The notes below the pieces were generated by a model. That model searched no databases. It had not been told where the DNA came from and saw only the letters and a list, made by a program, of their open reading frames with translations. Shown here in pieces: positions 3,617 to 17,623 of a stretch of 64,000 nucleotides of DNA (position 1 is the stretch's first letter; each line of letters begins with the position of its first letter). The position numbers and the translations under genes are program-made. The stretch is from NCBI RefSeq assembly GCF_014842915.1, contig NZ_JACYXI010000002.1:372001-436000 (forward strand). Direction: 5' to 3'. This DNA is from Roseibium litorale (GTDB lineage: Bacteria > Pseudomonadota > Alphaproteobacteria > Rhizobiales > Stappiaceae).

Positions 3617-5416
3617 TTAGTTCGGGAGCTTGAAGACCGTCAGCTGGCCACCCAGAGCGGTGTAGTCACTGAGAGCGGCATAACCGCCCACGGCGCCCAG
3701 ACCGTCGTTCGGGTTGGTCAGACCGGCTGCAAGGCCGATCCCGGCCCAGCCGCCGACACCCGAAAGGATCGCCACATACTGCTTGCCGTCAGAGGTGTAG
3801 GTCATCACGTTGCCGATGATGCCTGACGGGGTCTTGAAGCGGTAAAGCTCGTCACCCGTATTGGCGTCCACAGCCTTCAGATAGCCCTCCAGGGTGCCGT
3901 AGAAGACCACGCCGCCAGCCGTTGCCAGAGCGCCGGACCAGACAGAGAACTGCTCGGGGATCGACCACTTGATCTCACCCTTCTTGCCGTCCCAGGCAAT
4001 GAAGTTGCCCATGCCGCCATGGCTGTCCGGAGCCGGATACATGGCAAGGGTTGCGCCCACATAGGGCTGACCCGCCGTGTAGCTGACGCGGAACGGTTCA
4101 TAGTCCATGCAGACGTGGTTGGTCGGCACGTAGAACAGTTCCGTTTCCGGCGAGTAGGATGCCGGCTGCTGGTCCTTGGAGCCAAGTGCCGCCGGGCAGA
4201 TGCCGGTGGAGTTGACGTCCTCACCATTCTGCTCGGTGGAGTATTCAGCCACCACCTGTGGACGGCCATACTGATCCGAGTTCGGGTCCATAACAACTTC
4301 GGTTGCCCAGTTCACTGCCGGGTCGTATTTCTCTGCAACAAGAAGCTCACCGCTCACGCGGTCAAGCGTATAGCCGAAGCCGTTCCGGTCGAAGTGGGTC
4401 AGCAGCTTGCGGGTCTTGCCATCAATTTCCTGCTCCGTAAGGATCATTTCATTGATGCCGTCATAGTCCCACTCGTCGTGCGGGGTCATCTGGTAGAACC
4501 ATTTGGCCACACCGGTATCCGCGTCGCGGGCCATGATGGTCATGGACCAGCGGTTGTCGCCCGGGCGCTGTGCCGGGTTCCAGGTGGAGGGGTTCCCTGT
4601 TCCGTAATAGATCAGGTTTTCTTCCGCATCATAGGAATACCAGCCCCAGGTGGTGCCGCCGCCAATCTTCCACTGGTCGCCTTCCCAGGTGTTGGTACCG
4701 GAATCCTTGCCGACCGGCTTGCCCAGGTGGGTGGTCTTTTCCGGATCAACCAGGATGTCCTCGTCCGGACCCATGGAATAAGCCCGCCAGGCTTTGGAGC
4801 CGTCCTTGATGTTGTAGGCGGTCACAGAACCGCGCACACCGAATTCACCACCGGAAATCCCGACGATGACCTTGTCCTTGACCGGCATGACGGTCGCGGT
4901 GTTGGTTTCGCCCTTGGACGGGTCGCCGTTCACCACGCTCCAGACCTCTGCGCCGGTCTTGGCATCCAGCGCGACCAGCTTGGTGTCAGCCTGATGCAGG
5001 AAGATCTTGCCGTCGGCAAAGGCCAGACCACGGTTGACCGTGTCGCAGCACATCACCGGAATGACGTTCGGATCCTGCTTGGGCTCATATTTCCAGAGGA
5101 TCTTGCCATCGTTCTTGAGGTCAAGCGCATAGACGATGTTCGGGAACGGGGTATGGACGTACATCACGTCACCAATCACCAGCGGCGAGCCTTCATGGCC
5201 GCGCAGAACACCGGTGGAGAAGGTCCAGGCGACCTGGAGATCCTTCACATTGTCCTTGGTGATCTGATCCAGCTTGGAATAGCGCTGGTTCTTGTAATCG
5301 CCGGTCTGGATCACCCACTGGTTCGGGTCATCCATCATCTTCTGCAATTCGGCATCTGCCATTGCATTGCCAGCGCACAGGGCCAGCATACCTACGGCGG
5401 TCAGTAACCTTTTCAT
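3617..5416 (-). CDS. xoxF: Lanthanide-dependent PQQ methanol dehydrogenase XoxF
   Basis: A 599-residue periplasmic eight-bladed quinoprotein that oxidises methanol (EC 1.1.2.10 type). Numbered from the upstream GTG at 5422, it shows the vicinal disulfide Cys-Cys at 125-126 (PVMCCDT), metal ligands Glu193 (GGEFG) and Asn277 (GTGNPS), catalytic Asp319 and Asp321 in HDEWDYDG. The second Asp of DYD is the extra ligand that marks lanthanide-type XoxF; calcium-type MxaF has Ala there. No MxaF or MxaI is seen. I chose the ATG at 5416 because GGGAGG ends five bases before it, whereas that sequence would overlap the GTG. The signal peptide runs to about residue 22. It is the central gene of the frmA-fghA-xoxFGJ run. 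Confidence 0.95.
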
Positions 5417-5889
5417 CTCCACCTCCCATGGTGATAAGACGGTTTGAAAAACAGCTGTCGGAATGCGCTCAGAAGCCCCCCTGACGGATCCACACTCTCT
5501 CCCGGATCAAGCGCCACGCGGAACCAGCATTCCAAAGCCCGTTGCAGTCCTTCGGCTCGTTCCTCCCTCTTCCGGTTGACGCCAGGCCCCTCATTGCACC
5601 AGCGTAAAATCTAAAAGACCGCAGCGATTGGATCCGGAGTGTCCAGGATCCCGTCAGCTTCCCTGTCAGGACATCGCCTGAAGGAGATCATCAGCAGCTT
5701 TGACCAGGTTCATGACCAATCTGCGTTCATCCCCTCAGTCTTGCTCCAGGTGCCTGTCTGGCTCTTGACGCTGCACCCGTTCGAGCCGGCAACTCTGCCC
5801 TTGCGGCGGTTCCACTCTGCCTGTGCGGCAGAACGGCGAAAAGACCAACTTAGGTAGGTAGGCATTTTCTGATAGATACCCTTCCTCTA
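5417..5889 (-). promoter_or_regulatory. Long intergenic leader region upstream of xoxF
   Basis: The 473 bases between fghA and xoxF hold no convincing gene. Read on the minus strand the sequence can form several hairpins, for example CCAG-ACAGGCAC-CTGG around 5742-5757 and TCAGG-CGATGT-CCTGA around 5667-5682. A very short minus-strand frame begins at the ATG near 5712 (MNLVKAADD...) and stops after 15 codons. Fragments resemble pieces of TPP and cobalamin riboswitches, but the conserved cores are missing. It is probably the xoxF promoter plus a 5' leader; regulation, for instance by lanthanides, cannot be read from the sequence. Confidence 0.4.
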
Positions 5890-6729
5890 CTAGGCGCGGC
5901 CAGCGTTATGGAGCCGTTCAGCGTGCCAGCGGACATGATCTCCGGCAAACGTGGACACGAAGAAATAGCTATGATCGTAGCCCTCCTGCAGACGCACGAC
6001 ACCCGGCTGGCGGCGGCTGGCCATCGCCTCTGCCAGCGCCTGTGGACGCAACAGGTCGATGAATTGGTCGCTCGTTCCCTGATCGATCAGGATGTCGCCC
6101 TTCCAGCCCTTCTCACCCAGGAGGATCGTCGCGTCATAATCCGCCCAGACCGCCTCGTCATCGCCCAGATAGGCCGAAAACTGTTTTCGCCCCCAGTCTG
6201 ACTGGGTTGGATTGGCGATCGGTGCGAAGGCAGACAACGAGTGGAAAAGCCCGGGATTGCGCAGGGCAATCGTCAAAGCCCCGTGCCCGCCCATCGAATG
6301 CCCTGTAATGCCATGGGCACCGCTGAAAGGCTGAACCTTTGGCAGCTCTTGCCGCAGTTCATCGACCACATAGTCATACATGCGGAAATGCGGTTTCCAG
6401 GGAGCCTGCGTGGCATTCACATAGAATCCCGCGCCCTGCCCCAGATCATAGGCCTCGTCGTTGGCAACCTCTTCACCGCGCGGGCTGGTATCAGGAAACA
6501 CCAGCGCCAGGCCATATTCCGCTGCATGCTCCTGAAACCCGCCCTTGGTCATGGCGTTCTCATGGGTGCAGGTCAGGCCCGACAGGTACCAGAGCACCGG
6601 CACAGGACCCTCTTCTGCGTCGGGCGGAAGATAGACCGCGAAAGTCATATCCACGCCGCAGGTGGCCGACCGGTGCTTGTAGACGGTCTGAACACCGCCG
6701 AAACACCTGTTCTCCGAGACAACATCCAT
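5890..6729 (-). CDS. fghA: S-formylglutathione hydrolase
   Basis: A 279-residue cytosolic alpha/beta hydrolase that cleaves S-formylglutathione to formate and glutathione (EC 3.1.2.12), the step after FrmA. It begins MDVVSENRCFGGVQ, the usual family start, and has the nucleophile motif GHSMGG (Ser145) and the C-terminal catalytic His in YDHSYFF (about residue 256). The ATG at 6729 is chosen over one 60 bases upstream because it gives the normal family length and has GGAGGGG at good spacing; the longer version would overlap frmA. It lies 22 bases after frmA, so the two are probably co-transcribed. Confidence 0.95.
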   Translation of the reverse strand: MDVVSENRCFGGVQTVYKHRSATCGVDMTFAVYLPPDAEEGPVPVLWYLSGLTCTHENAMTKGGFQEHAAEYGLALVFPDTSPRGEEVANDEAYDLGQGAGFYVNATQAPWKPHFRMYDYVVDELRQELPKVQPFSGAHGITGHSMGGHGALTIALRNPGLFHSLSAFAPIANPTQSDWGRKQFSAYLGDDEAVWADYDATILLGEKGWKGDILIDQGTSDQFIDLLRPQALAEAMASRRQPGVVRLQEGYDHSYFFVSTFAGDHVRWHAERLHNAGRA

Positions 6730-6751
6730 TGCTCTTGCCCCTCCAAAAGCG

Positions 6752-7864
<1,113 letters not shown>

Positions 7865-7928
7865 CAAAAAACTCCGGGTTTCCTCCGTCCGCCGCTACGT
7901 AATCCGGTGCAGCAGATCTGTTCTTCCG

Positions 7929-7956
7929 ACTATAAGAGCGGGGTCAAAGCGGACAA
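7929..7956 (-). promoter_or_regulatory. Candidate promoter for the frmA-fghA-xox run
   Basis: On the minus strand, TTGTCC (7956-7951) is separated by 16 bases from TATAGT (7934-7929), which matches the sigma-70 -10 box in five of six positions. It points to frmA, whose ATG is at 7864. The same 170-base gap also carries the start region of the rightward gene at 8035, so regulation could be shared. Confidence 0.5.
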
Positions 7957-8034
7957 TTGCGACCTTGGTGTGGGTTTTGCCCCGTGCTCACCCGGTTCAA
8001 AATCCCTTCAGCCAGTCACGGGAGGTTAATGACA

Positions 8035-8673: not shown

Positions 8674-9774
8674 CTATTCCCATTCCAGCTCGGAATAGGC
8701 CGCCGTTGCATTGCGCGGATTGTAGAGGTCGAAGAGCGCCCAGTTGGGCGCCTCGCTGCCGCCAATGTGCTGGGCAGCTGTGCTCAAGGGTTCCCCTGCC
8801 GCAATGGCCTTCCGGGTGTCACTGGCAAGCACGTCCAGATACCGGTGCAAGGGCTCAATCCCTCCCGGAGACCTCAACACCGGACCACCATGGCCCGGCA
8901 CGAGGACAGAGACGGGTTCCCCCGCCAGCTCATCCAGAGCCTGCAGCCAGCCCTTGAGCGATCCATCCAGCGCAGGCGCGTGACGGTCGAACAACAGATC
9001 GCCGGTGAAAAGCGTTCCGGACGCACTCTCCAGAACGGTCAGGTCAGTGGGGCTATGCGCCAGAGGCCAGGCTTTCAGCTGGAGCTTCATCCCCCCCAGA
9101 TCGATGTCCGGCAGAGAATCAAGTGCCGCTTCATCGGGCAGGATCACCCGCGTTCCAATGAAAGCAGGATCGCCAGTCAAACGCCCGAAAGAGGCAAGAT
9201 AGGATCCGGCCCGGTCCTCAAACGCCCGGGCGAGGCCAGGATGGCCGACCACGCGGGCGCCAGCCTCCCGGAACACGGACGCGCCCAGAACATGGTCGGG
9301 ATGCATATGCGTCAGAATCAGATGACTGACCGGCAAGTCCGTATGTTGCCGCAGGGCGCGGTAAAGCTGTTCGCCAGCCTGCCGGGAACCACCGGAATCA
9401 ATCACCGCGACCGAGCTCTTCCCGATTACAAAACCGCTGTTGGACACATCACCAGCGTTGCCCGGTCCAGGTTCAGCAATAGCTCCCTCATGAACGAAAA
9501 CACCGGGAGAAATTTCCGTCACATCAAGCGCTTTGCCCAAAGGGGCACAGACAGGTTCCCCCCGGACCTCCTGACGGCCTTCCGCAAAGATGCCCTCCGG
9601 CCAGATGGATGGAAGCTCCAACGCACGGGCAGCAGTCTCACAGGCCTTGAGATCGAGGGCCTCATGGCCGGGCAACAGAACCTGTCTGCAGACCGGTTCT
9701 TCCGCTTTTGCCGGGGCGGACGGGCCGTTTGCAGGCATAGAGGCAAGGCAGAGCATCACCACAATCTCAAACAT
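8674..9774 (-). CDS. Quinoprotein relay-type zinc metallohydrolase (SoxH-like MBL fold)
   Basis: A 366-residue exported metallo-beta-lactamase-fold protein. The N-terminus is hydrophobic (signal peptide about 1-24). The zinc motif HMHPDH is at His156, His158, Asp160 and His161, with further fold landmarks at TGDLLFDRHAP and VPGHGGPV. It matches the SoxH-related hydrolases that co-occur with PQQ dehydrogenases, CXXCW proteins and SoxYZ-like carriers, all present here. The natural substrate is unknown. One reading is hydrolysis of something bound to the SoxYZ-like cysteine. It is divergent from the complete SoxYZ-like gene. Extra N-terminal cysteines (29, 45, 76) are seen. Confidence 0.85.
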   Translation of the reverse strand: MFEIVVMLCLASMPANGPSAPAKAEEPVCRQVLLPGHEALDLKACETAARALELPSIWPEGIFAEGRQEVRGEPVCAPLGKALDVTEISPGVFVHEGAIAEPGPGNAGDVSNSGFVIGKSSVAVIDSGGSRQAGEQLYRALRQHTDLPVSHLILTHMHPDHVLGASVFREAGARVVGHPGLARAFEDRAGSYLASFGRLTGDPAFIGTRVILPDEAALDSLPDIDLGGMKLQLKAWPLAHSPTDLTVLESASGTLFTGDLLFDRHAPALDGSLKGWLQALDELAGEPVSVLVPGHGGPVLRSPGGIEPLHRYLDVLASDTRKAIAAGEPLSTAAQHIGGSEAPNWALFDLYNPRNATAAYSELEWE

Positions 9775-9977
9775 GGCCGCCTAGCTCCCGTCCTTGCGCA
9801 TCCTGCCTGTTCGGATCCCAACTTCCCGCTCCGGGGCAGCACAGGCAACATATCCGGAAGGCTGTATTCCCGTAGCGTCAACTTGGGCGTAGACTTCAGT
9901 GCTTAAAATGCATGCATTGGCTGGCAAAGGGCAGGCTCTGTCCCCGTGGGGTCTGCCCCCGCCAGGGGAGAATTCTC

Positions 9978-10913
9978 ATGTCCAGATCATCGTCCGCGAT
10001 CCTCCGCGCTGCCAAACCGCCTCTCATGCGGGCTGCCGCTGCTGCGGTCATTGTGCCAGCCCTCATGGCTGCGTCCGGCCTGGCGCTGGCTGAGACGAAG
10101 ACACCTGCCGCCGGCAAATTATCAGCCATCCCTGCCGCCAAACAGGAGCCCGCAGCGCCACCTCTTCAACCCGGCAGCACCTGGGAGGATCTGAAGGCGG
10201 ATATCCTGGGAGACCAGGCTCCGGCAGACGGCAGTGGTATCATTTCGGTCGGCGCCCCCTACCGTGCCAATGATGCAGCAACAGTTCCCATCGTGCTGTC
10301 CCAGCCCAGCGCTGCCGCCCCGCGTATTCTGTCCGCCAAGCTGATCATCGACGAGAATCCTGCGCCGGTTGCTGCCACCTTGACCTTCGGCGCCGCCATG
10401 CATCCTCTGGACATGGAGCTCAGGGTGCGGGTCAACCAGTATTCCAATGTGCGCCTTGTTGCCGATACGGAACAGGGACCGGTGATGACCGGCCGTTTCG
10501 TCAAGGCGTCCGGCGGATGTTCCGCGCCTGCGACACGCGATCCGCAGCTTGCCTTGTCGACGATGGGCGAAATCCGCGTCCGCAACTTCCCGCAGGCCGG
10601 AACGGCCGCAGCCATGTCCACACCAGAGGGACAGCGGCGGGAAACCCAGGTCATGATCCGGCACCCGAACTACTCGGGACTGCAGAGGGATCAGATCACC
10701 CAGCTCTTCATCGCCGCCCATTTCATCGACAAGCTGGACGTCTATCAGGGCGACGACTTGCTGTTCTCCATGGAGGGCGGCATTTCGATCAGCGAGAACC
10801 CGGTTTTCCGGTTCAGCTACACCGACAACGGCTCACCTGACCTGAAGGTCCATGTGGAAGATACGGAAGGCAACAGCTGGGAGAAGACACTGCCCAAGCA
10901 GGTTGAAGGATAA
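9978..10913 (+). CDS. SoxYZ-like fusion carrier protein, quinoprotein-associated
   Basis: A 311-residue exported protein joining a SoxY-like and a SoxZ-like domain. The signal region is about residues 1-39 (ends LALAETK). The SoxY-like part covers roughly 65-185 and ends in the carrier-type cysteine ASGGCSAPA (Cys181); the SoxZ-like part covers 205-311 with IRHPNYSGLQRDQI and SISENPVF. In thiosulfate oxidation SoxY carries sulfur intermediates on a C-terminal Cys. Here the Cys is internal, and the family is linked to PQQ dehydrogenases rather than Sox enzymes. AGGGGAG seven bases before ATG 9978 fixes the start; an earlier in-frame ATG lacks a signal peptide. Second copy in the window (see 2-439). 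Confidence 0.88.
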   Translation: MSRSSSAILRAAKPPLMRAAAAAVIVPALMAASGLALAETKTPAAGKLSAIPAAKQEPAAPPLQPGSTWEDLKADILGDQAPADGSGIISVGAPYRANDAATVPIVLSQPSAAAPRILSAKLIIDENPAPVAATLTFGAAMHPLDMELRVRVNQYSNVRLVADTEQGPVMTGRFVKASGGCSAPATRDPQLALSTMGEIRVRNFPQAGTAAAMSTPEGQRRETQVMIRHPNYSGLQRDQITQLFIAAHFIDKLDVYQGDDLLFSMEGGISISENPVFRFSYTDNGSPDLKVHVEDTEGNSWEKTLPKQVEG

Positions 10914-10997: not shown

Positions 10998-11459
10998 TCA
11001 AAAACAGACGATATCCGCTTCGGCCTGAGCGCGCCGCAGGTTGGCGACCAGTTCCTTCGCGCTTGCAGCCTGGGAGAAGATTGCCATGCGTTCGCCTCCG
11101 GTCTGGCGCATGGAAAGCACCGTCGCTGCCTCCACGTATTTGTCATAGGGCAGGATGGACGCGATCACATCGATGGAGCAGGAACAGCGGCGCAGCACAT
11201 CACTGCTTTGCCCGTTGGTCGCCATGCAGCCGAAGACGTAGTCTGCCCGCGCTTCGGTTGGATAGTCATTCAGTTGATCCGCGACGGACGGTTTGGGCCC
11301 CGCAGCCAAGACGGCGGGTGTGTGAAGCATCACGAGGGAGACGAGCCCAGCGCCCAGCACCCTTCGCGTCCAAGCTGCCGTGTAGAAGCTCCCCCTAGCA
11401 GAATAGCTCCGCCGGGCAGAATGCCCGGCCGGAAGACCTAGTTTGCGGAGAACCCTCAT
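10998..11459 (-). CDS. Small exported cysteine-containing protein of unknown function
   Basis: A 153-residue protein with a basic N-terminus, a hydrophobic segment (about 33-52, LGAGLVSLVMLHTPAVLAAG) and four cysteines in the mature part: FGCMATN, RRCSCSID and a final Cys-Phe. That pattern suggests disulfides or a metal or haem site, but there is no CXXCH. It overlaps the upstream gene by four bases (ATGA), so the two are translated together. I know no family name. The position, between the SoxYZ-like carrier and the regulatory genes, suggests it belongs to the same quinoprotein-associated set. Confidence 0.75.
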   Translation of the reverse strand: MRVLRKLGLPAGHSARRSYSARGSFYTAAWTRRVLGAGLVSLVMLHTPAVLAAGPKPSVADQLNDYPTEARADYVFGCMATNGQSSDVLRRCSCSIDVIASILPYDKYVEAATVLSMRQTGGERMAIFSQAASAKELVANLRRAQAEADIVCF

Positions 11460-12193
11460 TGCGTTGCCTCCTGTTTCACGGGGGTATCAGAGACGCCCTC
11501 GCCCTCCAGATGCAGGACCATGCTATAGACCGGCTCTTCCCCTCCGGTTGCAGGTGCTGTGGCGGAAAGGTCCAGATACCAGCCTGGCACGTCCTTTGAG
11601 ACCGTCACCGTCAGGGCCAGATCTGCGAACCCCTGCATCCGGTCCCGGTTGGGATCCGACTTGAAAGGCCTCAGGGTCAGTTTCTGAACGTCGATATCCT
11701 TCCCCTGATAGGACTGGCTTGCCGTCTCAACCGGCACGGTCTCCAGGAGGGAGGCCTTGACCCTGTTGCGGATATAATAGGGGCTGCCGCCAGCTGTCGC
11801 TGCCATGTCACGCACAACAGTCTCGACGAAATAGAGGATCAGTGGATTGCCCACGGATGCAGGGAACTCTGCCAGCGTCCGGAACCGGCCGCTCTCCTCT
11901 CCCTTGGAAGCAAAGCGCAGCTCGGCCATATTGTCCGGCGCGAAAGCCAGACGGATGGTGCCGGAAGTCTTTTCACCGATGTCGGGCCGCCCCTTGGCCT
12001 CCGCCTGCTTGCTATAAGTCAGCATGACATTCCGGTCCAGGCCGTCGAGCGTCCCTTCCTTGAAGATCAGGTCATAAGTGGTGGTGTCCTTGACTTTATC
12101 ACTGGACCCGGCCTGAAGCGGCCCGGCCATGACCCCAAGAACCAGGGAAAGACCGGCGAGACCGGCCAGAAGTTGGCGCGTCACACGGCGCAT
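11456..12193 (-). CDS. Exported protein of unknown function, coupled to the small Cys-rich protein
   Basis: A 245-residue protein with a signal peptide (MRRVTRQLLAGLAGLSL..., cleavage near LQAGSS) and a beta-rich mature part containing TYDLIFKEGTLDG, KTSGTIRLAFAPDN, GNPLILYFVETVVRDM and VPGWYLDLSAT. It has no cysteines or membrane segment after the signal peptide. No family is recognised. The ATG at 12193 has GGGAGGAT upstream. The stop overlaps the next ATG (ATGA) of the 153-residue protein, so the pair is an operon and the products may act together in the periplasm. The upstream neighbour is the kinase gene at 12338, 144 bases away. Confidence 0.75.
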   Translation of the reverse strand: MRRVTRQLLAGLAGLSLVLGVMAGPLQAGSSDKVKDTTTYDLIFKEGTLDGLDRNVMLTYSKQAEAKGRPDIGEKTSGTIRLAFAPDNMAELRFASKGEESGRFRTLAEFPASVGNPLILYFVETVVRDMAATAGGSPYYIRNRVKASLLETVPVETASQSYQGKDIDVQKLTLRPFKSDPNRDRMQGFADLALTVTVSKDVPGWYLDLSATAPATGGEEPVYSMVLHLEGEGVSDTPVKQEATQ

Positions 12194-12337
12194 GATAGCA
12201 AATCCTCCCAGATGCATCTGGCACGGCGGCAAGGCCTCCCCCTTGCAAGCCATCGCCTGTCTGCCCAGTTCCGAGCCTATCCCCGCTGGTCCTTCTGTCA
12301 CCGCAGACAAAGGTCGGCGTTGCAGGCCAGATGCAGG

Positions 12338-14617
12338 TCAAGCGGACTCTTCCTCGTCCTCTTCCTCTTCGCCCCTCTGGGAGGCTTTGCTGGTTTTCCA
12401 GTCGATCAGCGGCCTCAGGCGCGAGAGTTGCACCGGTTTGGTGAGAATGGTGAAATCATGCCGTTTGCTGTCTGCGGCAAGCGTTTCCTCACGGCTCGCG
12501 GTGATCATGATTGCGGGAATGTGGGCGCCGGTTTCCCGGCGCAGCGACAAAATAGTCTTGATGCCACTATCATCACCGTCGAGCTGATAGTCGGCCAGGA
12601 TGATATCCGGCGCCATCCCCAGTTCACTGACCTGCGCCAGGGCCTCTGCTGTGGAGGACGCGGTCAAGACGCTGGCGCCCCAGCTTTCGACCTTTCGCGT
12701 GGTGGCAAAGAGAACATCCGGATTGTTCTCGACAATCAAGACAATGAGATCCAGGTCCTCCGCAGGTGAATCACTCTGATCAAGATCGCAGCAAGCATCC
12801 GGTTTTTCCTGAACCACCATCGGCAAGGTGATCGAGAAAACTGAGCCGATACCGGGCTTTGACCGCACGGACACGGGATGCCCGAGACGGCGGCAAGCCC
12901 GGTCGACGATCGACAGGCCCAGCCCCATGCCGAAGCCGGCACCGTCGGACGTGACGCGGGTAAATTCGGAAAAGACGCGGCGCTGATCCTTCTTGGAAAT
13001 GCCGATCCCTGTGTCCCAGACCTCCAGAACAACCTTGTCCCCCCTGCGGCGGCAGCCAACCAGCACCCGGCCTCTCGAAGTGTACTGAATGGCATTGACG
13101 ACGAGATTCTGGATCGACCGGCTTAGATACCGCTGGTCGCTGCGCACCCAAAGGCTGCTTGTAACGACATCGAGACGAAGGCCCTTTTCCTCCGCCAGTC
13201 CCGCATAGGCTTCCCGTGCTCCCGTCAGGAGGTCCCCGAGGCAGAAGTTCCCGATCGACATTTCCGTGCCAGTCGAATCCAGCCGCGAGATATCCAGAAG
13301 CGCCTGCAAGAGGCTCTCGATGGAGACGAATGAGCGGTCAAGCCGTTTGACAGTATCCCCGATCTGCAGATCTCCGGCATATTCGGAAAGATTTGAAATC
13401 AGGAGCTTAGCCGCATTGATGGGCTGAAGCAGATCATGACTGGCCGCAGCAAAAAACCGGGTCTTGGAACGCATCGCGTCTTCCGCCTGCTCCTTCGCGA
13501 TCCGCAGTTGCTCATCAACACGCGCCTGCTCTTCATTCTTACGCTTCAGCCTCTCGTTGGCGCGCGTAAGTGCCAGGGTGCGCTCCTTCACTCTCTGTTC
13601 CAGGATATGGGTCGTATGGATCTCGGCGGTGATATCCATGACGTTCATGATGTAGCCCTTGTCGGGCAGCGCATGGATTTGAATATCCAGCGTTTCGCCG
13701 CTGAGATGCCGGAATTGCCTTCTCAAACCCTGGCCGGATTTGATTTGCTCCTCCCAAGCTCTTAATTCCAGGGGCTCGACAATGCTCGACAGCATATTGT
13801 TGCGGAAAATGAAGTCCAGGATCTGTGCAACGGCTGTTCCCTTCCGGACCAGCTGCACTGGCAAACGCAACAATTCCCTGAAACGGTCATTGTGGATGAG
13901 AAGAGATCCCTGTGCGGAGAAGGTGCAGACCCCCTGGGTCATGTGATCGAAGGCAGCCTGAACGAAGCGGGTCTGCTCGTCAATCAGCCGGTCCTTTTCA
14001 AAGCGGTTCTGACGGACGACGCTGGTGATCTCCGTGGAAAGGAGCACCATCTTGCGCTCGCTCGCCCGCTTGTGCGTGATCTGGAACCAGCGGTCGCCGC
14101 GCAACCCGAATACAGGCGGCACGATGGATCCATCCGCCCGCTCAACACCCATTCCCCGTGTCGCAGCCGGGCCTCCTGCAGAGGGATCCCAGATCACATC
14201 CTTGCTCTGATAGAGAGCCCCGAGATACTCTTCAATCCGGAGGCCGGGCACGATCATATCGGTGAGGTCAGGTACCAGATGCTTGAACTGGTCATTGCAG
14301 ATCTCAAGTTCTGAATCGGAAAACAGCGCAAAGCCGCCTTCCATCGCCTCCATCGCATCGGCCAGATTGCGCTGTGTCTGTTCCCGGGCAAACTCGGCGA
14401 TCCGGAGTTGATTGCTTGCCCGTCCAAGCGTATCCAGCGCCCGTTCCAGTTCCCGGTTTTTCTCCCAGACTTCCCCTTGCAGAGCGATGGCAGACTGGAA
14501 CAGGGAATAGGCCGAGCCGCCGATATCATCTTCGCGCGTGGCCCGTTGGATCAGAGCATCGATGATCTTCGCCTGCCGCTCTATCTGAACTTCAAGTGGC
14601 TCCTGCGGATCAATCAA
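12338..14617 (-). CDS. Soluble PAS hybrid histidine kinase/response regulator (NahK/ErcS'-like)
   Basis: A 759-residue cytosolic hybrid kinase without membrane segments. An N-terminal coiled coil (about 1-90) is followed by PAS-like domains (about 85-200 and 220-335), a second coiled coil (335-385), the H-box FFAAASHDLLQPI with His394, an ATPase domain with N-box NAIQY and G-boxes DTGIGI and GMGLGLSI, and a receiver with phospho-acceptor Asp676 in ILADYQLDG. The tail is acidic. The SHDLLQP H-box is typical of the NahK/ErcS' class that governs quinoprotein ethanol oxidation or answers a NO sensor. TTG is the start: AGGAGGGGG sits just before it. It overlaps the FIST gene by 8 bases, so the two are probably coupled. 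Confidence 0.9.
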   Translation of the reverse strand: MIDPQEPLEVQIERQAKIIDALIQRATREDDIGGSAYSLFQSAIALQGEVWEKNRELERALDTLGRASNQLRIAEFAREQTQRNLADAMEAMEGGFALFSDSELEICNDQFKHLVPDLTDMIVPGLRIEEYLGALYQSKDVIWDPSAGGPAATRGMGVERADGSIVPPVFGLRGDRWFQITHKRASERKMVLLSTEITSVVRQNRFEKDRLIDEQTRFVQAAFDHMTQGVCTFSAQGSLLIHNDRFRELLRLPVQLVRKGTAVAQILDFIFRNNMLSSIVEPLELRAWEEQIKSGQGLRRQFRHLSGETLDIQIHALPDKGYIMNVMDITAEIHTTHILEQRVKERTLALTRANERLKRKNEEQARVDEQLRIAKEQAEDAMRSKTRFFAAASHDLLQPINAAKLLISNLSEYAGDLQIGDTVKRLDRSFVSIESLLQALLDISRLDSTGTEMSIGNFCLGDLLTGAREAYAGLAEEKGLRLDVVTSSLWVRSDQRYLSRSIQNLVVNAIQYTSRGRVLVGCRRRGDKVVLEVWDTGIGISKKDQRRVFSEFTRVTSDGAGFGMGLGLSIVDRACRRLGHPVSVRSKPGIGSVFSITLPMVVQEKPDACCDLDQSDSPAEDLDLIVLIVENNPDVLFATTRKVESWGASVLTASSTAEALAQVSELGMAPDIILADYQLDGDDSGIKTILSLRRETGAHIPAIMITASREETLAADSKRHDFTILTKPVQLSRLRPLIDWKTSKASQRGEEEEDEEESA

Positions 14618-15812
14618 GACCCCCTCCTGAAACCGGCGGGTAGAAAGCTACTCCGACAAAGGTCTGGTTCACATGCACGCCCAGGTGCTGCTCGCCATAG
14701 GTATTGAAGCCCAGCACACTGTGCTTGCGCAAGATCTGAGAGGCATCCTCCACCAGATCATTCAGCTCGATCTCAAGCTTGCGCAGGAAACAATCGAAGC
14801 CGAGAATGAAATCAGGCTCCCGTCCCATCGAGGACGCCTGGCGCAGGCCGCTATCCAGCATCGAGAGGATTTCCGTGCCCTGGCCGAGGGTCAGGACAAG
14901 ACCGTCGTCGATGGCTGAAAAGAACCACAGGCCTCCGCCCTCTTCCACCTGCTGGATCGCCCGTACATGCCAGCTGTTGCCGTTGCGCACGAGCACCGGA
15001 TTTTCCGCAAAGATCTTAGGTGACAGGTCCTCGATCTTGCGGCCGACGCAACGGGCGTATTCCCTGGCCGCAGGCGCGCCATTGATCTCCAGAACCAGCC
15101 GCTCCTCAGGAACAGACCGCGTCACGACCATCCGGATCGGTGTCGGCACGAAGTGATCAAAGCCAAGCCCGCAGAACTCCAGGTTGGTTTCCAGCAGAAG
15201 CAGCAGCCCGGCATTCGTATGGGCTGCACCTCCGTGCAGAACAAAGGTCTCATCAAAGGCCAGACCGTGCCCGGCAGATCCGCCAAAGACCGGAATATTG
15301 GCAAGGCCCGCTTCCAGGGCAGAGACGAGAAGATCTTCCTGTTTGGAGAGGCCATCCGCGAAGACCAGCGCGACCCTTTTCCAATTTGCCGTTGGCCGGA
15401 AGCGAGCGGACAGGCACCGGGCCTGATTGGCAGCCTTCTCGATCGAGACCGGCTTCAACGGCTTGAACAGCGCCGACGAGCAACGGAAATGCTTCTTTGG
15501 AAAGGCAATGACAAACAGGGCTGAACTCTCGTAGCCCTTGCACGTGATCTGACCGGCGGTGCTGCACCCGAACACGGTAGTCCGGGGCAGCTGGAGGGCA
15601 AATTCTGCAGCGACATCCCGCGGATCCAGACTGTCCGGTACAAACACAAGCAGGAAACAAGCGGCAAGAGCATCCATGCCAGATGCGGCTTCAGCCACCG
15701 CCTCTGCCGCCGTTACGGCATAGGAAACCCCTACCTGCACCGTTTCCGGCGCAGCGCCCTGGCCGGTGTTGCCGGAGCGCGGCAGCCCCGGAGGAAAGAG
15801 GTTCATGTTCAT
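14610..15812 (-). CDS. FIST-domain sensory protein (NosP-like)
   Basis: A 400-residue cytosolic protein with an N-terminal FIST part (VFGCSTAGQITCKGYESSAL, then VFGGSAGHGLAF) and a FIST-C part (about residues 215-380) containing LGFNTYGEQHLGVHVNQTFVG at the end. FIST domains bind small ligands. The Pseudomonas FIST protein NosP binds NO through haem and controls the kinase encoded next to it. Here the gene lies directly upstream of, and overlaps, a NahK-like kinase, and its start is 10 bases after the response-regulator stop, giving the order regulator-FIST-kinase. Ligand and haem binding are inference. The ribosome-binding site is weak, and either ATG 15812 or ATG 15806 could be used. Confidence 0.88.
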   Translation of the reverse strand: MNMNLFPPGLPRSGNTGQGAAPETVQVGVSYAVTAAEAVAEAASGMDALAACFLLVFVPDSLDPRDVAAEFALQLPRTTVFGCSTAGQITCKGYESSALFVIAFPKKHFRCSSALFKPLKPVSIEKAANQARCLSARFRPTANWKRVALVFADGLSKQEDLLVSALEAGLANIPVFGGSAGHGLAFDETFVLHGGAAHTNAGLLLLLETNLEFCGLGFDHFVPTPIRMVVTRSVPEERLVLEINGAPAAREYARCVGRKIEDLSPKIFAENPVLVRNGNSWHVRAIQQVEEGGGLWFFSAIDDGLVLTLGQGTEILSMLDSGLRQASSMGREPDFILGFDCFLRKLEIELNDLVEDASQILRKHSVLGFNTYGEQHLGVHVNQTFVGVAFYPPVSGGGLD

Positions 15813-15822
15813 ACCAGCTTTA

Positions 15823-16548
15823 CTAGCTCAGCAACGCACGGGCGTCGGACTCCGACATGGCAGGAAGCCCCGCCGAAAGGCTGGCGCTGCGGACAAGGAC
15901 CGCCGCCTGGGTGCGGTTGTTGACCCCAAGACGCCGCAACAGAGCCGTGATGTGCGCCTTGACCGTCGCCTCGGCCAGAGACAGCTCATAGGCGATCTGC
16001 TTGTTGGGCTTGCCAGCGCAGATCAGCTTCATGATGCGGTTCTGCTGAGGGGTCAGTTCCGCAATCTTGTGAGCCACCTGCTGGGACGTCATTTCCTGGG
16101 CCGTGGTGCGCTTCGACGGGGTAAACCCTGGCGGCAGGAACCTGCGCCCTTCCCTCACATCCAGCAGCGCCTGCTGCAGGATTTTGTGGGTCGCGTCCTT
16201 GGGAATGAACCCCGCGGCTCCTGCGGACAGCAGTGCGCTAATGGTCTCGTCTGATGATTCCGCCGAAATCACCAGCACCGGCACGTCTGGCAGTTTACTG
16301 CGGACCTTCAGGAAGCCGCTCAGCCCCGTCACGTCAGGCAGCTTGAGGTCAAGCATGACAAGATCAGGCTGGAACCGTGTTCCCACCAGCCGCAGCCCTT
16401 CCTTCAGGGATGTGGCGGTTTTCACAGAACGCGAGCGGAACAGTTTCTCCAGCGTCGCGGCCAGCGCATCGCAATAAAGTGGATGGTCATCAATGACCAG
16501 AATGGACTTGATCACAAGCTGGTCTTGCGGATCGCCTTTTGTGCTCAT
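15823..16548 (-). CDS. LuxR-family response regulator (ErbR/AgmR-like)
   Basis: A 241-residue regulator. The receiver domain (about 14-130) has acidic pair Asp20-Asp21, phospho-acceptor Asp67 in DLVMLDLKLP and the switch Thr/Ser-Lys region VISAESS...GFIPKDA. The C-terminal LuxR-type helix-turn-helix (about 170-235) has LTPQQNRIMKLICAGKPNKQ and LSLAEATVKAHITALLRRLG. AGGAGA precedes the ATG. It is first in a leftward run with the FIST gene and hybrid kinase and so is the likely DNA-binding output of that pair. Relatives (AgmR, ErbR, ExaE type) activate PQQ-dependent alcohol oxidation; targets in the xox island are inferred from location. Confidence 0.9.
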   Translation of the reverse strand: MSTKGDPQDQLVIKSILVIDDHPLYCDALAATLEKLFRSRSVKTATSLKEGLRLVGTRFQPDLVMLDLKLPDVTGLSGFLKVRSKLPDVPVLVISAESSDETISALLSAGAAGFIPKDATHKILQQALLDVREGRRFLPPGFTPSKRTTAQEMTSQQVAHKIAELTPQQNRIMKLICAGKPNKQIAYELSLAEATVKAHITALLRRLGVNNRTQAAVLVRSASLSAGLPAMSESDARALLS

Positions 16549-17051: not shown

Positions 17052-17405
17052 TCAGTCCTTCAAGGCCGCGACCACAATGATCTCGACCTTATAGTCCGGC
17101 GTTGCCAGAGCGGATTCGCCGGTTGCACGGGCCGGAGCGTTCTGCGGATCGACCCAGGCGTCCCAAACAGCATTCATCTCGGCAAAATCGCCCATATCGG
17201 CCAGCCAGATGGTGGCGTTCAGCAGACGGGATTTGTCGGTACCGGCGCGGGCCAGAAGAGCGTCAATGTTCGCCAGCACGGCCTTGGTCTGCTCGGTCAC
17301 GCTTTCGCCCGGCGCTCCGACCTGGCCTGCCAGCCAGACCAGGCCGCCATGGATCACGGCCTGGCTCATGCGCGGGCCCTTGTCGAGACGGGTGATTTCA
17401 GTCAT
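17052..17405 (-). CDS. RidA family (YjgF/YER057c/UK114) deaminase-type protein
   Basis: A 117-residue single-domain protein of the RidA superfamily. Motifs are AVIHGGLVWLAGQVG near residue 16, TEQTKAVLANIDALLARAG, and the end region FAEMNAVWDAWV with NAPARATGESALATPDYKVEIIVVA, which holds the Arg of the RidA active site. RidA proteins hydrolyse reactive enamine/imine intermediates, though many paralogues have other substrates. AGGAAAGGA lies before ATG 17405; a longer start has no support. It is divergent from a LysR regulator at 17624, so that regulator may control it. The exact subgroup is not clear, hence no symbol. Confidence 0.9.
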   Translation of the reverse strand: MTEITRLDKGPRMSQAVIHGGLVWLAGQVGAPGESVTEQTKAVLANIDALLARAGTDKSRLLNATIWLADMGDFAEMNAVWDAWVDPQNAPARATGESALATPDYKVEIIVVAALKD

Positions 17406-17623
17406 TGGGAATCCTTTCCTGTCGGGAGGTCTGACCCGTCTGGCCAGACACGCCTCAGTCCGGCTTGATAGCCTTGGCGGCAAGAGAACGCCATCGGGAT
17501 TTTGTCTTTTCAAGCCGCCCGGGAACCGGACCAGACCCTCCCCAAGCGCTGCCCGCCTTCCCCAAACGGGGCCACAAGTGCTACCAGCAGCAGGACGATC
17601 CCACTCACCGGAAACAGGCAGTC

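Follow-up and report, generated by a model that had tools for sequence, protein, structure and literature searches.

Introduction

R. sphaeroides has two gene sets for formaldehyde-responsive regulation, afdR-afdT-afdS and rfdR-rfdT-rfdS, and P. denitrificans has a similar open reading frame (ORF) between flhR and flhS (PMC4776306). AfdRS activates adhI with formaldehyde, and the same review states that how AfdRS and RfdRS sense formaldehyde is unknown; control of adhI and flhA by the Afd, Rfd and Flh systems has been published (PMC4776306, PMC8879981). Here we analyze three genes of the same order (response regulator, middle ORF, histidine kinase) in a stretch of 64,000 nucleotides from Roseibium litorale (contig NZ_JACYXI010000002.1, positions 372,001 to 436,000 of the forward strand), which we call the window. 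The genes encode a response regulator (RR), a protein with FIST domains and a hybrid histidine kinase (HK), and, as with AfdR-T-S, RfdR-T-S and FlhR-Orf2-FlhS, they are tied to genes for glutathione-dependent formaldehyde oxidation, here in an island that also encodes a XoxF-type methanol dehydrogenase. We consider it fairly probable that this module is a switch of the FlhRS/AfdRS type that responds to formaldehyde or C1 compounds, with the FIST protein as an auxiliary sensor.

A FIST protein is likewise encoded next to a kinase of the NahK/ErcS type in the NosP-NahK and NosP-NosK systems of Pseudomonas and Burkholderia. NosP sets the autophosphorylation of its kinase, and in B. pseudomallei it binds NosK, which has no recognized sensory domain, and inhibits autophosphorylation (PMC12570481). 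The NosP systems signal to HptB/RsmA or to an HD-GYP protein, whereas the output of the window module is a regulator of the LuxR type encoded beside C1 genes. In P. putida, PP_2663-PedS1-AgmR (nosP-nahK-erbR in PAO1) brings together a FIST protein, a hybrid kinase and a LuxR-type regulator beside a pyrroloquinoline quinone (PQQ) alcohol dehydrogenase (PMC12997753, which also treats NosP in the ped cluster). This ped/exa module belongs with ethanol-type quinoproteins, in contrast to XoxF and the glutathione pathway in the window, and alphaproteobacterial modules beside an ethanol dehydrogenase fall in a branch of the FIST family (branch B, below) apart from the window's clade. A preliminary description of the locus, made from the sequence alone, took NosP, NahK and ErbR as its model; the closest known system appears instead to be FlhRS/AfdRS/RfdRS (PMC4776306).

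In a literature collection whose coverage leaves out most subscription papers, we found no text pairing a FIST domain with methanol dehydrogenase and, among the matches listed, no link of FIST or NosP to formaldehyde regulators. The names afdT, rfdT, afdS and afdR were used for these genes only in PMC4776306, among the matches listed. Term searches of two papers that deal with rhizobial and roseobacter xoxF found no mention of FIST, regulator or histidine kinase in PMC12628762, and none of regulator, histidine or two-component in PMC5934484.

Results

The module and its synteny

The RR, FIST and HK genes form one run on the minus strand of the window (Table 1). There are 10 bases between the RR stop and the FIST start, and the HK gene begins within the end of the FIST gene, the two sharing 8 bases (ttgattga). 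ORFs and domains agree with the arrangement in the preliminary description. Its likeness of the module to NosP and NahK was also borne out by NCBIfam matches, all of them below cut-offs: the FIST protein scored 336.5 bits with NosP (NF041558; cut-off 450), the HK 348.9 bits with near_NosP_CTERM (NF041832; 400) and 397.6 bits with NahK (NF041831; 1500), and the RR 156.7 bits with ErdR (NF041830; 390). The three proteins are relatives of ErdR, NosP and NahK/ErcS that stay under the cut-offs for those names. The HK, judged by eye from its sequence to be soluble, consists of a conserved N-terminal segment, PAS, HisKA (H394), HATPase and REC (D676), with Pfam matches to PAS_7 (84 bits), HisKA, HATPase_c and Response_reg. 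The FIST gene is the only one that a Pfam FIST model search found in the whole genome.

The same gene order was found in other genera, which argues that the arrangement is more than chance. On pSymB of S. meliloti the order is RR-FIST-HK-hyp1-hyp2-SoxYZ-MBL-hyp3-FDH-FGH-cyt-XoxF-XoxG-XoxJ (FDH, glutathione-dependent formaldehyde dehydrogenase; FGH, S-formylglutathione hydrolase; cyt, cytochrome; other names as in Table 1), and plasmids of Mameliella and Salipiger have nearly the same or a shortened order. We counted neighbors in the best 80 of 152 loci in named genomes, mostly Rhodobacterales, from a scan with a FIST-clade alignment whose first row came from Mameliella and which therefore favors Rhodobacterales. 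The RR gene was directly upstream of the FIST gene in 78 of the 80 loci and the HK gene directly downstream in 79. There were matches to hyp1 in 77 loci, hyp2 in 76, SoxYZ in 69 and MBL in 64. FDH was detected in 48 and XoxF (>700 bits) in 23, both often being cut off by the 10-kb flank or a contig end. Eleven Rhodobacterales draft contigs (loci L060, L068, L070, L071, L073, L093, L094, L096, L098, L109 and L116) stop about 6.1-6.4 kb past the FIST gene, close to the expected FDH start, which suggests that an FDH repeat breaks these assemblies. A typical Rhodobacterales xox-type module was also present in a record titled Enemella evansiae TN21-6, an actinobacterium (L082); because its FIST protein nests among roseobacters in the tree described below, contamination or mislabelling is likely.

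C. sphaeroides 2.4.1 (our genome G673, in which 12 kb of contig is 100% identical to the plasmid of that strain) has two RR-FIST-HK sets, the same number as the published afd and rfd sets. Both middle ORFs encode FIST proteins, one of them in clade C, the sister of the window's clade A, and the middle ORF of the Afd and Rfd systems is very probably a FIST protein as well. In one set (L243) the kinase is followed by hyp1-hyp2, and gfa-adhI-cytochrome-xoxF lies about 10 kb away; the other (L244) is elsewhere, adjoining a gene of the molybdenum aldehyde-oxidase type. Paracoccus aestuarii (G633) has RR-FIST-HK-hyp1-hyp2 adjoining pqq genes. The xox-side kinases of these two species have no PAS domain, whereas the window HK does. 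The xox-side FIST proteins of C. sphaeroides and Paracoccus are of clade C, and the window-type operator (below) was not found there.

Placement of the FIST protein

A tree of 103 FIST proteins contained a split with 100/99 support between clades A and C on one side and branch B and NosP on the other; the tree was midpoint-rooted for drawing only, and its NosP members are sequences over the NCBI cut-off, none of them an experimentally studied NosP. That cut-off was reached in 23 of 299 genomes of a phylum sample, and the window protein has 336.6 of the 450 bits. Clade A comprises the window protein, that of S. meliloti and those of most sampled Rhodobacterales islands, and clade C the C. sphaeroides xox-side protein, Paracoccus and others. 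The window FIST is a NosP-superfamily protein outside the NosP branch. Of the two findings that the preliminary description set jointly against its reading, a place outside the NosP clade and the lack of a haem ligand, the first is thus observed, whereas the NosP-invariant His and Cys residues are kept.

Every clade A sequence keeps the His and Cys residues that do not vary among the 23 NosP sequences over the cut-off (C83, H220, C341 and H380, numbered as in the window protein). In branch B, C83, C341 and H380 are kept in 98-100% of the sequences and H220 in only 51%. Because branch B keeps them too, conservation of C83, C341 and H380 says little about haem. C52 and C111 are features of clade A.

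The predicted structure of the window FIST (predicted local distance difference test score 86.8) resembles the FIST domain of FBXO22 (Z 18.9, root-mean-square deviation 3.5, 255 aligned residues) and the Toblerone enzymes chorismatase and cyanuric acid hydrolase (Z 11.0-12.6). These proteins share the fold at 7-17% identity, whereas the window protein stands in a bacterial signalling context. Residues 375-381, which include the invariant H380, form a low-confidence loop. There was no convincing sequence match among solved structures, the two matches detected having E values of 0.014 and 0.02 over 44 residues. A RidA/YjgF-like protein, recognized by eye, is encoded just upstream of the RR (17052-17513, minus strand). 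Toblerone-fold enzymes are RidA-like, and the combination of this neighbor with a Toblerone-like FIST fold is probably a coincidence.

Association with alcohol and aldehyde oxidation

Genes for alcohol or aldehyde oxidation adjoin the module in 81 of 84 clade A loci, 15 of 19 clade C loci and 53 of 76 branch B loci, compared to 0 of 20 control stretches from 20 branch B genomes. The clade A count is inflated by relatedness, and none of these genes was present in 23 of the branch B loci and 4 of those in clade C. The genes counted were those for quinoproteins, aldehyde dehydrogenase, PQQ, glutathione-formaldehyde oxidation, SoxYZ and oxidases of the molybdenum aldehyde-oxidase type; the query genes came from loci of these groups, and a few loci therefore match themselves. 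The pqq genes were in 20 of the 84 clade A and 11 of the 19 clade C loci. These counts fit best the more cautious proposal of the preliminary description, that of a switch for quinoproteins in general with a ligand other than nitric oxide (NO). The link of the module to quinoproteins is real, and stronger than that description could know. Because the setting is alcohol and aldehyde metabolism, formaldehyde or its glutathione adduct is the favored ligand for clades A and C, with perhaps an even chance of being right.

A gene of the molybdenum aldehyde/xanthine oxidase type adjoins the FIST-kinase pair in 18 of the 76 branch B loci. Examples are L131, L133, L138, L171, L174-L176 and the C. sphaeroides locus L244; L174 also has CoxG.

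Co-occurrence with XoxF

Among 37 genomes of the window's genus, XoxF and the FIST clade (at least 60% identity) occurred together in 11 and were both absent from the other 26. Six of these 11 genomes have XoxF and FIST 8.7-9.2 kb apart on one contig. Their positions in G022, G013 and G019 fit a contig break within the island, and G021 was not placed either way. In G014 (L179, L180) the module adjoins pqqBCE, and the xox island, on another contig, keeps hyp1-hyp2 and the FDH operator described below.

Among 292 genomes of Rhodobacterales, the order of Roseovarius tolerans (G576, genome of L102), all 22 with the FIST clade (at least 50% identity, center genome included) had XoxF, compared to 45 of the 292 overall. 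Some FIST protein was present in 44 of the 45 XoxF genomes and in 92 of the 247 without XoxF. For eight genomes in which the fetched module locus had no XoxF (six loci covered 10 kb downstream, and two were truncated), XoxF was found elsewhere in all eight.

The clade A FIST is not a constant partner of XoxF. It accompanies XoxF in 11 of 11 genomes of the genus, 22 of 45 Rhodobacterales and only 3 of 79 in a sample of 297 genomes from the window's order, where the 79 are genomes with a XoxF match of at least 62% identity, counted by hand on the listing. A first count of 91 XoxF genomes (E 1e-150) was dropped, as 12 of them match at only about 50-54% and may carry other PQQ dehydrogenases. From these counts, the module predicts XoxF and XoxF does not predict the module. 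The co-occurrence on which the preliminary description made its reading depend holds strongly in one direction, from module to xoxF (11/11 in the genus, 22/22 in Rhodobacterales), and often fails in the other.

Kinase architecture

In 32 of 172 FIST-HK pairs the H-box lies within 150 residues of the kinase start, leaving no room for a PAS domain (one artefact, L095, was removed, and 21 kinases with no recognizable H-box were left unscored). Pfam confirmed the absence of PAS in three of the 32. They comprise every scored locus of clade C (18), 11 copies of branch B from the window's genus and three other loci, and a spread across these groups means that PAS was probably lost more than once. The PAS-less kinases keep the FIST gene adjacent.

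The kinases have in common a short N-terminal segment, in which I18 (0.99), L22 (1.00), F40 (0.98), A43 (0.98) and L46 (0.99), together with R25, are the most uniform positions. In clade A the conservation of this segment (0.73) exceeds that of the PAS regions (0.61 and 0.60); in branch B the values are about equal (0.61 for the segment, 0.61 and 0.56 for PAS). Given the loss of PAS with FIST retained, the conservation of the N-terminal segment and the NosP-NosK precedent, the FIST protein is likely the input to the kinase, with the N-terminal segment as its likely docking site.

A candidate operator upstream of FDH

We derived a 30-base site from the aligned close-upstream sequence of island FDH genes, with the consensus aATACccACCAttGTct-aaTTGtt. 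CATACT or TATAGT, which resembles a -10 element, follows about 12-16 bases after the site in the rows shown. A position weight matrix (PWM) was built from 52 loci, window site included, and those 52 match by construction. In the window the FDH site scored 28.8, the next best 11.0 and the shuffled window 5.6. The 11.0 site, between the kinase gene and hyp1, is doubtful because, upstream of hyp1, 0 of 49 loci rise above even the 95% control. A genome search with zero mismatches to the consensus, in a pattern written to include the FDH site, matched that site alone. A search allowing one mismatch was not used, as it gave 40 places in the genome compared to 12 for the reversed control. No operator match was listed near the second FDH copy in the genome, which is 100% identical over 370 residues.

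The site distinguished island copies of FDH from other copies. Among 30 FDH loci of the genus, all five scored island copies had 28.8-36.1, and none of the other 25 exceeded 1.7. Two of the five had contributed to the PWM, and the five do not include the copies in the islands of G033 and G016. The 25 comprise 21 from genomes that gave no match to the FIST clade, three from genomes not tested for the clade and one non-island copy in a module genome. Scores over the 95% control were also obtained for 28 of 38 gfa promoters and 30 of 68 SoxYZ/MBL promoters. A divergent member with the island order, L261, has the operator (29.9), whereas among L242-L281 no locus of clade C or branch B scored above 10 and the operator was not found in the Paracoccus loci. 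The operator thus follows the clade A regulator, and we claim it for clade A only. The RR is the candidate factor for binding this site.

A motif about 265 bases upstream of FDH (ACCTTGCG...CAGGGCCA, 49 of 52 loci) was rejected because it lies inside the hyp3 coding sequence, where it corresponds by eye to a conserved PGWPC.QRK. Motif counts before xoxF were discounted as mostly coding sequence of the upstream gene, also by eye. About 100-120 bases upstream of xoxF, Rhodobacterales loci have a leader hairpin in which the stem varies and the GGAGG-rich loop is conserved (L037, L042, L045, L047, L049, L066, L080, L106, L107 and others); it is weak in the window. A stem of at least 7 pairs was present in 19 of 34 loci, compared to 3.0 expected from shuffles. 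No Rfam family reached its gathering score in the window and three loci.

Other genes of the island

The hyp1 and hyp2 proteins had no Pfam or NCBIfam match at E 0.001. The Cys-containing motif of hyp2 is also kept in C. sphaeroides, where hyp1-hyp2 are likewise present. The window XoxF shares 84% identity with the protein annotated as methanol/ethanol dehydrogenase on pSymB of S. meliloti.

Table 1. Genes and candidate promoter elements of the module and island (window positions).
Feature	Position	Strand	Details
LuxR/NarL-type response regulator (RR), FlhR/AfdR-like, phospho-acceptor D67	15823..16548	-	241 aa; Pfam Response_reg 2.1e-20, GerE 1.7e-18
FIST N + FIST C protein, NosP superfamily, clade A	14610..15812	-	400 aa; Pfam FIST 6.3e-36, FIST_C 1.2e-15
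Hybrid histidine kinase (HK), FlhS/AfdS-like, NahK/ErcS-related	12338..14617	-	759 aa; TTG start
Possible weaker second operator between kinase and hyp1	12293..12322	-	PWM 11.0, above 99% control of 4.4; doubtful
hyp1, conserved gene after kinase	11456..12310	-	Begins like a signal peptide; judged by eye, true start probably near 12193
hyp2, small Cys-containing, secreted-looking protein	10998..11459	-	Match in 76/80 loci
Quinoprotein dehydrogenase-associated SoxYZ-like carrier	9912..10913	+	TIGR04557 259 bits, cut-off 140
Quinoprotein relay system zinc metallohydrolase 2 (MBL)	8674..9774	-	TIGR04559 363 bits, cut-off 280
Candidate operator of RR, upstream of FDH	7948..7977	-	PWM score 28.8
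TTATAGT, likely -10 element of the same promoter	7929..7935	-	TATAGT/CATACT recurs near this place in relatives
Glutathione-dependent formaldehyde dehydrogenase (FDH), proposed main target	6752..7867	-	TIGR02818 597 bits, cut-off 544
S-formylglutathione hydrolase (FGH)	5890..6789	-	72-73% identity to annotated fghA of S. meliloti and Mameliella, same place
XoxF-type PQQ methanol dehydrogenase	3617..5422	-	TIGR03075 783 bits, cut-off 480

Discussion

We propose that the cytoplasmic FIST protein, the presumed equivalent of AfdT, RfdT or Orf2, binds a small molecule produced by methanol oxidation, most likely formaldehyde or S-hydroxymethylglutathione. It would dock on the conserved N-terminal segment of the HK and set HK autophosphorylation, and the signal would pass to the LuxR-type regulator directly or via some Hpt protein. 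The regulator would then bind the ACCA-type site and turn on the island FDH, and in relatives also the gfa and SoxYZ/metallohydrolase genes, and formaldehyde removal would thereby keep pace with XoxF.

Several results weigh against this proposal. In an rfdT mutant of R. sphaeroides, adhI expression with formaldehyde was unchanged (PMC4776306), and either of the two C. sphaeroides sets could be Afd or Rfd. There was no excess of operator matches upstream of xoxF (2/34), FGH (0/45) or hyp1 (0/49), and only 8 of 85 RR promoters had one, which gives no support to autoregulation or to control of xoxF itself. The operator was not found in the fetched adhI region of C. sphaeroides or in other clade C loci. 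Of the 79 XoxF genomes sampled from the window's order, 76 were without this FIST clade, and the Fisher value for the genus (1.2e-9) ignores kinship.

The rfdT result would fit a system in which the PAS domains of the kinase are the sensor, of redox state, a quinone or another metabolite, and the FIST protein is an accessory. This alternative, which also draws on the PAS_7 match of the window HK and on the about equal conservation of PAS and N-terminal segment in branch B, seems rather unlikely to us: all 18 scored clade C kinases and the 11 branch B kinases of the genus do without room for PAS and still have FIST adjacent, and in clade A the PAS regions are the less conserved part. A module that governs methanol or PQQ physiology in general, such as lanthanide or PQQ status, and does not respond to formaldehyde would account for the pqq genes in clade A and clade C loci and for G014, where the module sits beside pqqBCE and the XoxF island is on another contig. 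The operator, however, is found at FDH and gfa promoters with no excess before xoxF (pqq promoters were outside the scan), and we regard this explanation as unlikely.

The preliminary description suggested that methanol oxidation may be tied to NO or another FIST ligand; no link to NO metabolism turned up, and none was systematically searched for. That the FIST is a true NosP-like haem protein coupling methanol oxidation to NO would agree with its NosP-superfamily score, with the NosP-invariant residues kept throughout clade A and with the published NosP-NahK logic. We nevertheless judge this quite improbable, as the protein falls outside the branch of NosP and scores under the NosP cut-off, its neighbors are C1 and quinoprotein genes, its predicted fold is that of FBXO22 and the Toblerone proteins, and three of the four residues are almost as well kept in branch B. 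It is exceedingly unlikely that the three genes are chance neighbors of the island. Many xoxF genomes of the window's order have no module, as chance would allow, but the synteny extends across Rhizobiaceae and Rhodobacterales, and co-occurrence at the level of the genome persists even where module and xoxF are unlinked.

A formaldehyde-responsive switch of the FlhRS/AfdRS type thus remains our preferred reading. We also put forward, tentatively, the possibility of a FIST protein that has a Toblerone fold and acts as an aldehyde receptor of a non-haem kind, docked on the kinase N-terminus, for formaldehyde and perhaps acetaldehyde in branch B; NO sensing by NosP would then be one branch of an older family that senses alcohols and aldehydes.

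Recognition of the middle gene, which had been passed over in the model bacteria and had been given no role, as a NosP-superfamily FIST provides a concrete candidate for the formaldehyde receptor of AfdRS/RfdRS-type systems, and the kinases that lost PAS and kept FIST constitute a natural experiment. The finding joins two literatures, those of NosP and NO in biofilm signalling and of C1 metabolism, and it suggests that FIST-kinase pairs are widely attached to alcohol and aldehyde oxidation.

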